From: Candidatus Bathyarchaeota archaeon
GTDB taxonomy: Archaea; Thermoproteota; Bathyarchaeia; TCS64
Assembly (NCBI GenBank): GCA_026014875.1
Contig: JAOZHO010000050.1
Coordinates: 1-36,089 of the forward strand
Direction of reading: 5' to 3'
DNA: 36,089 nt
The stretch's first letter is position 1; every line of letters starts with the position of its first letter. Both the position numbers and the translations under genes were made by a program. Below the pieces are notes generated by a model, which was given only the letters and a program-made list of their open reading frames with translations, ran no database searches and was not told the DNA's origin. This document shows, piece after piece, positions 19,118 through 33,149 of this stretch.

Positions 19118-19222
19118 TCCATTTGAAGGGGGAGCTGGGCAGCAGCCCGGCTGAGAGGACGTTGATTCGTCGACCCTTTGAACCTGACCCAGGTAATACT
19201 GGCGGAGGGATAAAAAAAAGTG
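19118..19222 (+). promoter_or_regulatory. TPP riboswitch (THI element) upstream of thiT
   Basis: The core matches the thiamin pyrophosphate aptamer: GGGGGAGC at about 19128-19135, a P3 hairpin, GGCTGAGA near 19149-19156, a variable stem, ACCCTTTGAACCTGA (19173-19187), then GGTAATACTGGCGGAGGGA (about 19192-19210). The 3' element GGAGG at 19204-19208 is also a Shine-Dalgarno sequence for GTG 19220. CATTT (19120-19124) can pair, with one G-U, to AAGTG (19218-19222), so P1 would include the start codon. This predicts translational shut-off when TPP is bound. The aptamer match is seen directly; the P1/start pairing is my inference. Confidence 0.92.
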
Positions 19223-19735
19223 AGTAATAGCTTAAGCACGAAGGTTCTCGCAGAAGTAGCGATTCTGGTTGCATTGGCGACCGTTTTGAGTTACATACGG
19301 TTTGTGGTTTTCCCGCAGGGGGGCAGCGTCACCCTTGCGAGCATGGTGCCCCTGATAATACTATCGTACAGGCGTGGCTGGAAGGTTGGAATATTCGCCT
19401 GCCTCGTACACGGGCTGATACAGTTCTATCAGGACCCGTATATGCTGAGCTTGGCGCAGGTCCTACTGGAATATCCTGTCGCCTTTGGCGTCATCGGCTT
19501 AGCCGGCATCTTCAAGGGAAACGAGCTGATCGGTGCAGTCGTCAGCCTAGGGTTGAGATTCCTAGCCCACACGCTTGCCGGGGTAGTATTCTGGAGTGAC
19601 TACGCCCCCCCGGATATGTCTCCTATACTATACAGCATCATCTACAACGGCACCTACATGCTTCCGGAGATCATCATAAGCGGTGTCTTCGTATACGCAC
19701 TGGTGAAACGTGGCATCCTAGAGATGAACCTATAA
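19220..19735 (+). CDS. thiT: Thiamin ECF transporter S component
   Basis: 171-residue membrane protein that would bind thiamin and work with shared ECF energising subunits encoded elsewhere. About six hydrophobic segments are seen. ThiT-like features include GGSVTLASMVPLIILSYRRG (residues 31-50), the GxxxGxxHGLIQF stretch, and WSDYAPPDMSPILYSIIYN with the tryptophan and tyrosine of the binding site, followed by LPEIIISG. It starts at GTG 19220, 12 bp after the riboswitch GGAGG. The TPP riboswitch in front makes thiamin the likely substrate. No ECF ATPase or T component is in this window. Confidence 0.92.
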   Translation: MSNSLSTKVLAEVAILVALATVLSYIRFVVFPQGGSVTLASMVPLIILSYRRGWKVGIFACLVHGLIQFYQDPYMLSLAQVLLEYPVAFGVIGLAGIFKGNELIGAVVSLGLRFLAHTLAGVVFWSDYAPPDMSPILYSIIYNGTYMLPEIIISGVFVYALVKRGILEMNL

Positions 19736-27771: not shown

Positions 27772-28074
27772 GCTCGCCGGACTCGGCCTGTGGGCTCGAC
27801 GCTTGAAGCGCGCGAGGATATTGAACGTTTATTCAAAATTATAGGTTTAAAACGTGAACGAGTGTATCTAAAAAAGGTAAGCTGTTCGGAATAGCGTCGG
27901 CGGCGCGCACAGTACTATGCAGGTAGGTACAACTCGAAAAGACGCCATGAATTTACGACGAGCGAGCTTTTTTCCCATTAATGGAAAAAAGTTTTGAATA
28001 AATGAATAATGAGGTAAAATATTTGCCAAAATCGTTAGAGAACCTTTATCTGTAATTAGAACAAAAAGTGCTTA
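27772..28074. other. AT-rich intergenic region with a long inverted repeat
   Basis: No gene is supported in these 303 bases. CTTTTTTCC (27967-27975) and GGAAAAAAG (27983-27991) form a 9-bp inverted repeat around ATTAAT; the T run on either strand could end transcription. CCTTTATCTG near 28042 is a possible TATA element for the gene starting at 28075. The composition turns AT-rich here, at the edge of the accessory stretch. Confidence 0.5.
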
Positions 28075-28398
28075 ATGGCTCAGAAAAGTTCTCGGCAAGA
28101 GATTGCCAAGAATATGTTCTACCAGTTTCAACCCCGTCTCCAACAAGAGGGAGAATGGAACCCTCAACATAAGTCCGCTGAGAGTCTGGAGAGTACAGGA
28201 GTAAAGTCACCCAGAGAGTTCCTCAGAGTCATAGGCCTTCTATTTACCTCTCTGACGTTGCTCCACCTCCTTCTTATTCTCAGATATGGAGCGGTGAGAA
28301 TCATCGAACCCCGTCTGTGGATTCTAATACCCGAGGTAATCATGATGACTTTCCTGGTCATTCTCTTTCTTTGGGATATTCGTGAAGGAGATCATTGA
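28075..28398 (+). CDS. Small two-helix membrane protein, unknown
   Basis: 107 residues. A polar, Gln-rich N-terminal half (about 1-48) is followed by two transmembrane helices (about 50-68, FLRVIGLLFTSLTLLHLLL, and about 80-100, WILIPEVIMMTFLVILFLW) and a short charged end. No homologous family is recognised. ATG 28075 is about 30 bp after a possible TATA element, so the transcript would be leaderless. Its AT-richer composition is like that of the genes that follow. Confidence 0.6.
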   Translation: MAQKSSRQEIAKNMFYQFQPRLQQEGEWNPQHKSAESLESTGVKSPREFLRVIGLLFTSLTLLHLLLILRYGAVRIIEPRLWILIPEVIMMTFLVILFLWDIREGDH

Positions 28399-28600
28399 TA
28401 GCGACACATGCAAGGCCTACCCCTACATGAGATCATCTACCACTGAGTAAATAACGTACTAACCTTCATGGTAAATGTCGCCCATCAGGGTCAACACCGA
28501 GGGACCTCACCCGGAAACCAGCCACCAAGATCACAGAACCATTGCGCTTAGGCTGATTAAATAATTCAGGTTCATTGGGAGACCCCACGCGCGACGAGAT
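28399..28600. other. Intergenic region without a recognised gene
   Basis: No ORF, RNA or repeat is supported. Its right end (from about 28580, TTCATTGGGAG, then GCGACGAGATTCAGAGGGA) begins to resemble the region just past the carboxymuconolactone decarboxylase stop at 32485-32520, so the duplicated block extends slightly beyond the coding fragment. Confidence 0.5.
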
Positions 28601-28714
28601 TCAGAGGGATTCTTCAACCTCTTGAATCAACGGAATCGCAAGCTCCGCAACCGTGACCCCCGCCCCCCAAGCCAACAGAGCGATTCCAAACATTAGTCTC
28701 GTATTAGATCTCAT
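28601..28714 (-). CDS. Microprotein: duplicated C-terminus of the carboxymuconolactone decarboxylase-like gene
   Basis: 37 residues from ATG 28714, with a good Shine-Dalgarno (AGGAGAGA) 5-12 bp upstream. Residues 1-11 (MRSNTRLMFGI) are unique. Residues 12-37 (ALLAWGAG...QEVEESL) are identical to the last 26 residues of the gene at 32509-32841. Over that part the DNA differs at eight codons, all silent: A, L, G, A, P, V, E, E. A dead fragment would not be expected to keep every amino acid. The peptide is largely hydrophobic, then acidic at its end. It follows the secreted-protein gene by 21 bp and probably shares its transcript. Confidence 0.6.
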   Translation of the reverse strand: MRSNTRLMFGIALLAWGAGVTVAELAIPLIQEVEESL

Positions 28715-28735
28715 CTTATCTCTCCTAGTTTGTCA

Positions 28736-30055
28736 TCAAGTTACGGGTATCAGTTCATGGAAGCCTATACTGATGATTTCGTCTCCAAATGGAGCGGGCC
28801 CTATTATGGTGCCCGATATCATGTAACACAGAGGCGGATATGTTTGAGGAGGGTCACTGTGATGGTCGATGAAATACACCAGCTCCACCTTCTCGATGGT
28901 CAACTGCCCCTCACGGGGTATTGCGCCATACAGCGTCGTGAATCCAAGCTCTTCTATCGAGTAGTTCCCCGTCAAGAATCTGTCTAATGCTTCCGGAGGC
29001 GATAAGGGTAGATCCGTGTACTCTTCGATGAATACCGAGGGTATGTGGAGTTCGACGTCGTATACCTGGCCATCGGCTATCGATAATCCAAAGTCAGCCC
29101 CTGGCCCGTACAGTTTGATGCCGGCCACCTTCACGCTGTATCTAGCCCCTATTTTGTTTACGACTCTCGTACCGTTTTCATGGACCGTCACGGAGCTTGG
29201 CCTGATTGTGTCGAACTCGATATGGGCCTCCGTCGGGACCTGCCAGTAGTTGTACAGGTTCTCGAGGAACTCATCGGCGATTGCCCTGATCTCCGGTTCC
29301 GACCAGTCCTCCACGATGGTCTTGTCGCCCAGCGTCTGGTAGAAGACGTCGTTCAGCCCGTAGAAATAGAGCCTCTTATTGCCCTCGACGACGGCCAGGC
29401 TACCCGTACGCTTCTCCATTTTTTCGATGTCGCTGAAGTTGAAGGCGTTCAACGCGATTGTCTCTGCCGTACTGTTAGTAATGGGGATTCTCTCGACCTT
29501 CAGCCGTGGAACATATTCCAGTGTTGAGGGCAGATCGCAATTCATAGCCAGATTATGTCTTGATAGATCGCCTAAAGGACCCGAAACAGTAGTCCCATTT
29601 GAGCTTGTGGTATTATCGTAAGGTTGGATGTTGGGTTCCATAATCAGGACTGTTTTCTCTACTCCCAAACAGGTAATGGTGAACTCTCCAAGAAATTTTG
29701 GTTTGAAGCCTTGATGTAACAATTGTGCCTTTGACTTTGCAGGAATGTGAAATTTATCTGCCCAACTGATATCGACAATGCCTATAGCTGGTTCTGGGTC
29801 ATTTTCGCTAACACCGGAAAATGAGAGACGGGGTATTGGCTCCACCCAAACATCCCTTGAACGAGTATTCACCAATGAGACATTTGCGGTGAAGCTCTCA
29901 CCTAATACATAGTAATTCCTTGATGTGAAAATCTCGACCTCAACATCATTCACCGTCATAATAGTCCGCATAAGCCCGCTATTGGGTAACCAGACGATGA
30001 TCACCAGTAGTATAACCGCCGACAGAATGACGATTCGCTCAGATGCATCAGCCAT
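28736..30055 (-). CDS. Secreted membrane-anchored protein, paralogue of the next gene upstream
   Basis: 439 residues. An N-terminal anchor or uncleaved signal (MADASERIVILSAVILLVIIVWL) is followed by a long ectodomain with several NxT/NxS sites and many beta-strand patterns. Residues about 35-130 (VNDVEVEIFTSRNYYVLGESF, then PKFLGEFTITCLG-KTVLI) match the upstream protein (30063-30824) in order and spacing, as does the start MADASERI. The remaining 300 residues are unique. It starts at ATG 30055, seven bases after the upstream stop. The function is unknown; an Ig-like beta fold is plausible for the shared part. Confidence 0.7.
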   Translation of the reverse strand: MADASERIVILSAVILLVIIVWLPNSGLMRTIMTVNDVEVEIFTSRNYYVLGESFTANVSLVNTRSRDVWVEPIPRLSFSGVSENDPEPAIGIVDISWADKFHIPAKSKAQLLHQGFKPKFLGEFTITCLGVEKTVLIMEPNIQPYDNTTSSNGTTVSGPLGDLSRHNLAMNCDLPSTLEYVPRLKVERIPITNSTAETIALNAFNFSDIEKMEKRTGSLAVVEGNKRLYFYGLNDVFYQTLGDKTIVEDWSEPEIRAIADEFLENLYNYWQVPTEAHIEFDTIRPSSVTVHENGTRVVNKIGARYSVKVAGIKLYGPGADFGLSIADGQVYDVELHIPSVFIEEYTDLPLSPPEALDRFLTGNYSIEELGFTTLYGAIPREGQLTIEKVELVYFIDHHSDPPQTYPPLCYMISGTIIGPAPFGDEIISIGFHELIPVT

Positions 30056-30062
30056 ACCTTCA

Positions 30063-30824
30063 TCACCCTAGTATCTCAAATTCTATGATGAGCGTATATG
30101 ACTCCGGAGTAACACTATCCTCGACAGTTTTACTAATTCTGTACTGACCGATCTCCAGTGCATCAATCGTAACTTCTTGACGGAAGACATTTCCTGAATC
30201 TAATAGGTCTAAATACATGAGCCAGATGTTGGGGTGATGGAGGGATGCAGGTACTTCTACCCAGAGATCGCCATCTTTTTTCTGAATCTCATATTTATCT
30301 CCTAAAGTTATTCTGTTTAGACCAACATTCGTGATAAAAAGAGTGGCTTCATCTGTACTCTTAAACGAGTGTTTATTCATCATTGCGATTACTGTTTCGC
30401 CCTCAGATGGCGGATCAAAGATTAGAACCGTTTTATTCGCTCCCAAGCAGGAAATTAAGTACTCGCCAGAATATTTTGGTGTGAGGGGTCTAGAATGGAA
30501 TTTTATTCTTGAGTTAGGCGGAATCTCACTGTAAACTATAGGGTGGCCGTGACCCGTAGAAGCAGGGCTTGGTTCGCGCTCTGGTGTGTATCCTTCTATG
30601 ACCTTATCGATATTCGTATTAAGTTTGACCGCAAAAGGTTTCTCATTATAGAAGTATACTTTGACCTCGATATCCTCATTCATTTCATATACTCCTTTCT
30701 CTGTCTCCAATTCAATCCTGACATCGTCTAAAGATACAATTGGAGTAGTCGTAGATGTCCAAGCAATAATTCCAATTAGTAAAAGAGCTGACAGAACTAT
30801 GATTCGCTCAGATGCATCAGCCAT
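30063..30824 (-). CDS. Secreted membrane-anchored protein, shorter paralogue
   Basis: 253 residues from ATG 30824, chosen over ATG 30836 because GGAGTG precedes it and the start MADASERI matches the next gene. An N-terminal membrane segment (VLSALLLIGIIAW) is followed by a beta-rich ectodomain with IELETEKGVYEMNEDIEVKV and KYSGEYLISCLGANKTVLI, which align with the paralogue downstream. The single cysteine of CLG is shared by both. It overlaps the end of the preceding gene by coupled translation. Its composition is AT-rich compared with the core genes. The function is unknown. Confidence 0.7.
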   Translation of the reverse strand: MADASERIIVLSALLLIGIIAWTSTTTPIVSLDDVRIELETEKGVYEMNEDIEVKVYFYNEKPFAVKLNTNIDKVIEGYTPEREPSPASTGHGHPIVYSEIPPNSRIKFHSRPLTPKYSGEYLISCLGANKTVLIFDPPSEGETVIAMMNKHSFKSTDEATLFITNVGLNRITLGDKYEIQKKDGDLWVEVPASLHHPNIWLMYLDLLDSGNVFRQEVTIDALEIGQYRISKTVEDSVTPESYTLIIEFEILG

Positions 30825-30825
30825 T

Positions 30826-31399
30826 TTACACTCCAACGATTCTCTCGGACAACCAATCTCGTTTAATCCAAATGGATAACAAGACCGCTACTCCGATACC
30901 TGCTTCTATCATTATAATCGGAGAGAAAGGTGCGGGGATGCTTATTCTCCGTCCATAAGAGTTCATGGCTACACCATCGAAGATAGAGAATTTCCCCTGA
31001 GACCCCCCTAAAACCTCAAAAAAATCTGGAGTAACCTGCCTCAAAAACACATACACTTTCTCCCCCACATTGAACCCAAGCGCATGCTCGATGCCCTCAA
31101 TCCACTCATAAACGATCGTTCCCTCTGAGGTCACCCACTCTCTAAGAGTATAGGTGGAATAATGAATTACTAGAGACGAAGCCTCCAAGGGATTCTTGAG
31201 ATATCTCTCCACTTCGACATCGACATAATGGTCATCCCCTTCGCGCGTTATCGACGTCACGCTTCCGATGACAATGGTGTCGGATTCTCTCCACAACTCA
31301 CCATCATCTATCGCGGCCCATAAGGCACTAGAGCAGACTAGGGGAGCGATTAGAATTAGGATAAACCGTAGCTACCAGCGGGATATTTCGGAACTGCAT
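30826..31399 (-). CDS. Secreted protein with C-terminal anchor; apparent frameshift in the signal peptide
   Basis: The open frame reads back from the stop at 30826 past TTG 31296 to a TAG at 31374-31372. The part above TTG 31296 is a clear signal peptide (RFILILIAPLVCSSALWA, cleaved before AIDDGELW), yet it has no ATG, GTG or TTG start. ATG 31399, placed correctly after a TATA element at about 31426-31440, opens the neighbouring frame (MQFRNIPLVAT). One missing base near 31340-31375 would join the two. The mature part is about 160 residues with a final transmembrane helix (IIMIEAGIGVAVLLSIWI). Either the gene is broken or the base is a sequence error. The function is unknown. Confidence 0.55.
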
Positions 31400-31679
31400 C
31401 TATCTAACAGAGTATATTGAAGCTTGACTATTTAATCCTACAGAATAGAACACCCATCTATTCAACGGGAAGAGGCTGAGGCAGCCGTTTCGTTCGAGGA
31501 GACTGAAGAAGCAGTCACGGTATTAAGCCCGTACTCGACGAGATACTTCCAAACCCCTCTCCTCCTACGCCTAAGAAGCTCGAATTAGAGGCGTTGGATG
31601 AACGATCCCCGTTCAGGGGTCTCCGTCAACCAAGGCATCTCAGAAAGGTTCATAACGTGATAAATCAAACAAATAATTG
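31400..31679. other. Intergenic region with promoter and a startless reading frame
   Basis: It contains the leftward TATA region (ATTAAATAG on the minus strand, about 31428-31438). On the plus strand a frame is open from about 31437 to a stop at 31588 with no start codon (IQREEAEAAVSFEETEEAVT, then SPYSTRYFQTPLLL), perhaps a remnant. GATAAATC at about 31661 may serve the small gene that follows. Confidence 0.35.
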
Positions 31680-31895
31680 ATGCTCATCGACCAAATCACT
31701 GCTCTCGTTACCCAGGACCCCCAGGAGATGATCTGGATCGAGACACAGGCATCAATACTCGCGATTATAGCCATCTGCCTTCTATGTCTCTGGCCTTTAG
31801 CGGAATATTACCGCTATCATGTGCGAGTAAAAGAAGGAGCCATCGTTAAACACGGGATGAAATATCTTTTCGCGAATCGCGACGACACGAAATAA
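31680..31895 (+). CDS. Small single-helix membrane protein, unknown
   Basis: 71 residues from ATG 31680; the TTG just before it would add one residue. One transmembrane helix (ASILAIIAICLLCLWPLAEY, about 25-44) is followed by a basic cytosolic tail (YRYHVRVKEGAIVKHGMK). No family is recognised. It lies in the accessory stretch among other small membrane proteins, with an AT-rich upstream region. Confidence 0.5.
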   Translation: MLIDQITALVTQDPQEMIWIETQASILAIIAICLLCLWPLAEYYRYHVRVKEGAIVKHGMKYLFANRDDTK

Positions 31896-31944
31896 CCTCG
31901 CACAAATGCGCACACGATCCGAGGAATCACCAAGATTCAGAACG

Positions 31945-31962
31945 GCCAAACAGATATAAATA
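31945..31962 (+). promoter_or_regulatory. TATA region
   Basis: AACAGATATAAATATCG is a good rightward TATA candidate about 110 bp before ATG 32065, implying a leader of roughly 80 bases. Confidence 0.4.
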
Positions 31963-32064
31963 TCGAGATTCCATACCATTCAAGGCTCTGATCGAACGGA
32001 TGAGCCTCGGCTCCGATGCGGGGAGAAGTGCCGGCATCAACAGGAGGGGAGAGGTGAAAGAGAA

Positions 32065-32403
32065 ATGTGGTTACCGTTTCCTCTCGACCTACCCAAGGAA
32101 GTCTTACTTGGCTATAGTCTGACACTAATAACGGCGGCCATACTGTGGCTGATCGTCGCCGATTACAGGAAGGCGCGCGCGGCGCGCCATCGCACCCACG
32201 AGTGGATTTTACTGGGTTTCATCCTAATGATCAACGCCGCAATCGTCTCAGTCATAATATTCTACAGGAGTGAACTGGCCTCAATCCTATCGAGCGCCCG
32301 CACGGTGGCAACCGAACCCGCTGTACTGCTCGCGCTCCTCGTAACAATAGGCTACGTAATATACGCCAGATACGCACAGGACCCCCAACTCACCCCATCA
32401 TAG
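32065..32403 (+). CDS. Small three-helix membrane protein, unknown
   Basis: 112 residues. Transmembrane helices lie at about 13-32 (LLGYSLTLITAAILWLIVAD), 46-66 (WILLGFILMINAAIVSVIIFY) and 82-100 (AVLLALLVTIGYVIYARY), with a basic loop (YRKARAARHRTHE) between the first two. ATG 32065 has GAGGTGAAAGAG before it as a ribosome-binding site. No known family is recognised. It converges on the carboxymuconolactone decarboxylase-like gene. Confidence 0.55.
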   Translation: MWLPFPLDLPKEVLLGYSLTLITAAILWLIVADYRKARAARHRTHEWILLGFILMINAAIVSVIIFYRSELASILSSARTVATEPAVLLALLVTIGYVIYARYAQDPQLTPS

Positions 32404-32508
32404 ACTATCATGAAAAGCGTCGCAAAAACACCACACGATAGGAGACACGAATTGAAAATAGAAAAGAGTTGATGTTACGGACGAATCTTCATTGCGCGCT
32501 CACGAGAT

Positions 32509-32841
32509 TCAGAGGGACTCCTCGACCTCTTGAATCAAAGGAATCGCAAGCTCAGCAACCGTGACACCCGCCCCCCAAGCCAACAACGCAGCCGCCTGAA
32601 TCTCCTCCTTAGACACACCCGCCTTGAAGGCCTCACCCACGAAGTGCCGAAGAGCAACAGGGTCCCGAGTAACCGCGTAAATCCCAATCCGAACCAGAAT
32701 CAACGTCTTGGGATCCAAAACACCTTCAATGTTGATCTCCTCAGACAGCTTCATCCAAGCATCAGCCACTCCCGGGGTCTCCTCACAGAAAATCTGCCAA
32801 ACATTCTTCCCGACCATGCTGAAAAACAGAGACGCCTCCAA
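32509..32841 (-). CDS. Carboxymuconolactone decarboxylase/AhpD-like protein without the CxxC pair
   Basis: 110 residues, all helical, with the family layout: an N-terminal segment (VADAWMKLSEEINIEGVLDPKTLILVRIGI) and the core AVTRDPVALRHFVGEAFKAGVSKEEIQ. In AhpD the core reads C..C..H; here only the histidine remains, so thiol peroxidase chemistry is not expected. The start is TTG 32841 or ATG 32817; I keep TTG because it gives the full N-terminus, but neither has an ideal ribosome-binding site. The last 26 residues recur in the microORF at 28601-28714. The role is unknown. Confidence 0.82.
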   Translation of the reverse strand: MEASLFFSMVGKNVWQIFCEETPGVADAWMKLSEEINIEGVLDPKTLILVRIGIYAVTRDPVALRHFVGEAFKAGVSKEEIQAAALLAWGAGVTVAELAIPLIQEVEESL

Positions 32842-33050
32842 CTATACATCACTTTCCTCCCCCACTCCCCAAAAAAAGCGCGAATCAAAGAAAACCCCCT
32901 CAAGCAATTCAGTAGCTATTCAGTACCAAAACAAACCAAAAAACCACCTCCCCAACCAAAAGGGCCAAAAACACCCAAATAAACCAACAAAGGTTTAAAC
33001 CCGGAAAACCGCTATAAACGGCCACGTTTATAACCCCCACTAACCAGAAA
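32842..33050. other. Strand-asymmetric A/C-rich spacer
   Basis: From about 32850 to 33000 the plus strand is mostly A and C with few T and G (for example AAACAAACCAAAAAACC). It lies between the decarboxylase-like gene's start and the 3' end of the tRNA. No gene is supported. On the minus strand its G/T-rich runs could terminate the tRNA transcript. Confidence 0.45.
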
Positions 33051-33149
33051 TGGAGCCCCGGGCGGGATTTGGACCCGCGATCTCCTCCTGTTCGGCCCCC
33101 ACAACGGGAGATACCAAGGAGACGCTTTACCAGGCTAAGCCACCGGGGC
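33051..33149 (-). tRNA. tRNA-Thr (GGU) with a 22-nt intron
   Basis: The acceptor GCCCCGG pairs with CCGGGGC, then discriminator U and an encoded CCA (33053-33051). The D stem is GCTT/AAGC, the anticodon stem TCTCC/GGAGG with loop TTGGTAA (anticodon GGU), the variable loop AGATC, and the T arm GCGGG-TCCAAAT-CCCGC. The exons, 33149-33112 and 33089-33051, add up to 77 nt. The intron 33111-33090 lies at the canonical 37/38 site. TTGG pairs with intron CCGA to give a 4-bp central helix flanked by 3-nt bulges TAT and ACA, and CTCCC/GGGGG closes the intron hairpin: a proper bulge-helix-bulge splice motif. Confidence 0.95.

Follow-up and report, generated by a model that had tools for sequence, protein, structure and literature searches.

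In Escherichia coli K-12 the prophage e14, located in icd, has duplicated 165 bp of the gene, and the duplicate, icdC, is the displaced icd 3' end at the far side of the prophage; the two copies are separated by 12 exchanges, two of which are conservative replacements (PMC11148124; Hill et al. 1989 cited there). The bias towards silent changes at icd/icdC requires no selection on the displaced piece. Here, we describe a locus with a similar arrangement in a Candidatus Bathyarchaeota archaeon. The window, i.e. the whole stretch of DNA that was analysed, is 36,089 nucleotides long, and its gene for a protein of the carboxymuconolactone decarboxylase family (CMD) takes the place of icd: an intact gene with one 3' end is followed by extra DNA and by a second 3' end in the same orientation. 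As at icd, the differences between the two ends are nearly all silent, here eight exchanges with no replacement. However, the duplicated stretch is only 26 codons long, compared with 54 in icdC, and the intervening DNA, 3.9 kb, contains no integrase, unlike e14. Further, the comparison with icd lacks an uninterrupted CMD gene. Since the integrase is missing and no uninterrupted CMD locus is known, we describe the locus as resembling icd/e14/icdC and not as a member of the same class.

The features of the locus are listed in Table 1. All of the arrangement lies in a stretch of 5.28 kb with a GC of about 40-53%, compared with about 60% in the surrounding DNA. This stretch is missing from the closest relative (G001), in which 87 bp separate the DRG GTPase gene from the tRNA gene and nfo, while here 5.28 kb intervenes. 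Both outer flanks are syntenic between the two genomes. A tRNA-derived att repeat at the ends of the island was considered and rejected, as a shared 10-mer is absent in either orientation. There is no integrase between the repeats described below, and the three integrase-family matches in the genome are all on other contigs. The bordering tRNA gene, 96 nt long and probably containing an intron, is detected by Rfam and missed by ARAGORN.

The genes at 28736-31296 form an operon of related secreted/membrane proteins with the common start MADASERI, and their homologs in the family are patchy and domain-shuffled. No virus-borne relatives were found for either the 439-aa protein of this operon or CMD. 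At 27991-28049, just ahead of a 107-aa ORF at 28075, there is an 83% match to another genome (G003, C1:19375-19429). Elsewhere in the window a TPP riboswitch (19118-19227; RF00059, 66.5 bits) directly precedes a 171-aa membrane protein (start at 19220), which is plausibly a thiamine transporter component.

Table 1. Features in and around the low-GC stretch, with positions in the window
Feature	Position	Strand	Remarks
Low-GC 5.28-kb stretch	27772..33049	.	missing from closest relative G001
Recurring intergenic motif	28544..28592	+	directly downstream of the fragment
Displaced CMD 3'-end copy	28594..28681	-	26 codons, stop and about 7 nt downstream; direct repeat D1
MicroORF	28601..28714	-	11-codon unique head, 26-codon CMD tail and TGA
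439-aa predicted membrane-anchored/secreted protein	28736..30055	-	directly upstream of the microORF; no Pfam match
257-aa protein	30063..30836	-	Big_14 domain (PF20251); N-terminal paralog of the 439-aa protein
156-aa protein	30826..31296	-	C-terminal hydrophobic segment; homologs in a few family members
72-aa small hydrophobic ORF, unconfirmed	31677..31895	+	no Pfam match above cut-off
112-aa small membrane-type ORF, unconfirmed	32065..32403	+	no Pfam match above cut-off
Second copy of the stretch, 3' end of the intact CMD gene	32502..32589	-	direct repeat D1
CMD gene, 110 aa	32509..32841	-	TTG start at 32841; PF02627, E 3.8e-9
Right-hand tract, right of the CMD gene	32869..32905	+	about 11 nt from the motif at G000:C50
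tRNA gene at the island border	33054..33149	-	Rfam RF00005, 52.6 bits

The displaced 3' end is part of a microORF that an earlier note on this DNA had described as born from the 3' end of the CMD gene and as encoding a short peptide, apparently made and selected. Our results agree with that description of its structure. On the minus strand, the ORF starts with an ATG at 28714 and stops with a TGA at 28603-28601. Its 37-aa product consists of the head MRSNTRLMFGI and 26 further residues, ALLAWGAGVTVAELAIPLIQEVEESL, which are identical to the C-terminus of the CMD protein. Upstream of the ATG there is a AGGAGAGATAAG stretch with an SD-like GGAG, comparable motifs are present at other genes of the window, and the gap to the stop codon of the 439-aa gene is 21 bp. 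The head is indeed unique, in that its DNA does not match the CMD gene. An origin from an FtsX-like ABC permease (MKSNTLL...) was rejected: the weak protein likeness is at chance level (E about 0.6) and there is no DNA similarity. The only part that distinguishes the micropeptide from its parent protein is the junction peptide LMFGIALLAWGAG..., and no Pfam model matches the 37-aa product.

The CMD gene itself is the only full-length copy in the genome. Its Pfam score is 36.8, compared with a cut-off of 23 bits (Carboxymuconolactone decarboxylase family, PF02627); its 110-aa ORF is intact and aligns from end to end with orthologs, the frame being restored by the proximal copy of the 3' end. Together the two 3' ends form the direct repeat D1, 84 nt at 93% identity, in one orientation and 3908 bp apart. 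The repeat continues beyond the stop codon, for 7 nt without gaps and for about 16 nt with one gap, indicating that non-coding sequence was copied as well. In contrast, the 5' boundary of the fragment is abrupt, and no remnant is seen of the other 84 codons of CMD. The origin of the fragment from the 3' end of a gene, as the earlier note proposed, is thus supported.

In two other genomes of the same family (G008 and G013) CMD is part of a conserved cluster and convergent with a gene that we take, from our own reading of its sequence, to be DUF123-like. Part of this cluster is also present in our genome, on contig C46. The idea that CMD is still in this cluster, as in the other genera, was rejected: on C46 a HAD-like hydrolase occupies the place that CMD has in G008 and G013. 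The presence of a cluster remnant without CMD indicates that the gene studied here has either moved to its present location or been acquired there.

Our recount of the substitutions gives the same result as the earlier note: the microORF and the CMD tail differ at 8 of 78 nucleotides, in eight codons, and all eight changes are silent (seven at third positions, one at a first position, CTG/TTG). Between the two tails dN is 0 and dS about 0.56, a distance that excludes recent gene conversion as the cause of the protein identity. A random single change in this sequence has a 28% chance of being silent; with both copies neutral, eight silent changes out of eight have a probability of 4e-5. With the fragment alone neutral since it was copied, 44% silent and 56% replacement changes are expected, and the absence of replacements among eight changes has a P of 0.0014. 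It is therefore unlikely that the fragment was copied from the gene and then drifted. The silent-only pattern shows that, for most of the time since they separated, the two tails were both constrained at the protein level.

The question is on which protein this constraint acted. As a control, silent and replacement changes were counted over the same 26 codons in pairs of intact, full-length orthologs of the same family; not all of these pairs are independent. At a similar or greater silent distance the silent:replacement counts are 12:0 (L008/L011), 8:1 (L005/L006) and 11:1 (L011/L012). The remaining pairs give 6:5, 5:4 and 8.5:8.5, so that 8:0 is on the conserved side. These counts show that 8:0 falls within the normal behaviour of a full-length gene. 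Since silent-only tails are also found between intact orthologs, and the displaced end at icd/icdC is nearly silent-only as well, there is no need to assume that the micropeptide was the target of the constraint. Of the selection claimed in the earlier note, the constraint on both tails thus stands, while selection on the micropeptide is not required. The silent changes give no evidence of a new small protein that is produced and under selection.

It should be added that the tail does vary over longer times: compared with the nearest orthologs (G008 and G013), both copies show a dN of about 0.16-0.18, and every lineage-specific residue is common to the two. The tails are thus closely related, with a dS (0.56) about as large as between sister species, and they could have diverged while each of them ended a working protein.

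We consider it probable that the microORF is a scar, that is, the leftover 3' end of a second CMD copy which was displaced by an insertion or a rearrangement. Two versions of the CMD 3' end would first have diverged as ordinary full-length genes in different lineages. Later, about 3.8 kb with the operon of secreted/membrane proteins would have come to lie in the CMD 3' end; one 3' end would have stayed with the intact gene, and the other would have been displaced to the far side with its orientation unchanged. There the displaced tail would have landed in frame behind a start codon and an SD-like sequence. These probably come from the truncated next gene of the operon, and the 11-residue head would most likely be the start of that gene. 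Such a landing would give an ORF by chance (about 1 in 3 for the frame), and the resulting peptide would have no function. Truncation after divergence as full-length genes leaves exactly the silent-only pattern that is observed. On the favoured route, an element carrying its own functional 3' end would have integrated into the 3' end of the gene; we infer this mechanism, and with it which of the two copies is native. What counts against a scar is that the ORF is intact and has an SD-like site, features that a dead fragment would not have to retain, and against the site-specific route counts the absence of an integrase between the repeats. An empty site, i.e. a CMD gene without the cargo, was not found; G001 lacks the whole 5.28 kb including CMD.

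The same scar could also be reached if two full-length CMD genes had long ago stood in tandem and the first 84 codons of one were lost through a deletion or through a cargo insertion that was not site-specific. This origin explains the substitution pattern and the missing integrase equally well; however, two neighbouring CMD genes of this subfamily were not found in any genome examined. In general, a tandem pair broken by cargo or deletion fits almost as well as an integration of the e14 type. We regard it as a possible, although not the likely, history, and its probability overlaps with that of the scar, as the tandem pair is one possible route to it. A simpler origin would be that part of CMD, its 3' end, was duplicated inside this genome and then drifted neutrally. 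The abrupt 5' boundary, with no trace of the other 84 codons, is what such an event would leave, but the lack of replacements where 56% are expected (0 of 8, P 0.0014) largely refutes it, and we find it extremely improbable. An artefact is also to be considered: in an assembly chimera or a strain mixture, the fragment or the end of the gene would derive from a contig of a related strain. The assembly consists of 51 contigs with an estimated contamination of 3.9%, it is the only genome of its species in the comparison, and the divergence of the tails resembles that between species. However, the window is inside a contig of 144 kb, both outer flanks of the 5.28-kb stretch are syntenic with G001, and the tails, whose shared exact matches do not exceed about 20 nt, are a poor cause of misjoining. 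An artefact of this kind is therefore very unlikely in our view.

The remaining alternative is that the microORF encodes a functional small peptide, possibly inserted in the membrane, as the last gene of the operon of the 439-aa protein, and that it has been selected since the duplication. Judged from its start codon, SD-like site and operon-like position and spacing, the micropeptide could be made. With a mean hydropathy of up to 1.81 over 19 residues, a basic start and an acidic end, it could also insert into a membrane. Further, the finding that 8 of 8 changes are silent rejects a fragment that has been neutral since it was copied. Against this, intact orthologs give an equal substitution pattern, the hydrophobic stretch pre-exists in the tail of the parent CMD (1.79), and the copied stretch takes in non-coding bases downstream of the gene. 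Homologs of the 439-aa gene in other genomes occur without a trailing microORF. The earlier note had also suggested a search for the 26-residue tail as a stand-alone ORF in relatives; in 26 other genomes of the family it was found only at the end of full-length proteins. As the genomes compared are not close, both absences carry little weight. A functional peptide is for these reasons unlikely. A related reading, in which the displaced tail was taken over as the last gene of the operon and is now a selected 37-residue membrane peptide with its sequence held identical to the C-terminus of the parent enzyme, seems quite unlikely to us.

The DNA outside the repeats provides a further view of the scar. 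A second intergenic region in this genome, at C50:11668-11770, aligns colinearly with the two flanks joined together, with an identity of 82% to 28544-28592 and of 89% to 32869-32905. At C50 these two pieces are about 11 nt apart, compared with 4.3 kb in the window, and the right-hand tract is present only at these two sites in the genome when up to 3 mismatches are allowed. As the flanks are nearly adjacent at C50, 28593-32868 behaves as one inserted unit. This suggests that the fragment, the cargo and CMD form a single unit, which entered a recurring intergenic sequence or was assembled inside it.

The left-hand motif, GATTAAATAATTCAGGTTYATTGGGAGACC..., recurs in this genome and in G007/G013. 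Its sites are 28544-28592 in the window, 1169-1217 in L100, 926-966 in L101, 411-450 in L103 and 210-237 in L104. In L103 and L104 it resembles an archaeal TATA promoter with a TGGGAGA...TCTCCCA hairpin behind it. The motif is possibly an undescribed small RNA, and no convincing match to it was found in Rfam. Another recurring sequence is the A/C-rich intergenic tract CAGTAGCTATTCAGTACCAAAACA... at 32893-33009 of the window, with dozens of copies in this genome and several in G002.

As a scar, the microORF is of a known kind. For the calling of microproteins from silent-only differences it illustrates a trap: when two gene tails have diverged within full-length proteins, a perfect signature of protein-level constraint remains even though one of them is later cut off. 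Further, the locus may turn out to be a protein-coding integration site in a genome of the Bathyarchaeota type, provided that an integrating element arranged in this way is discovered.
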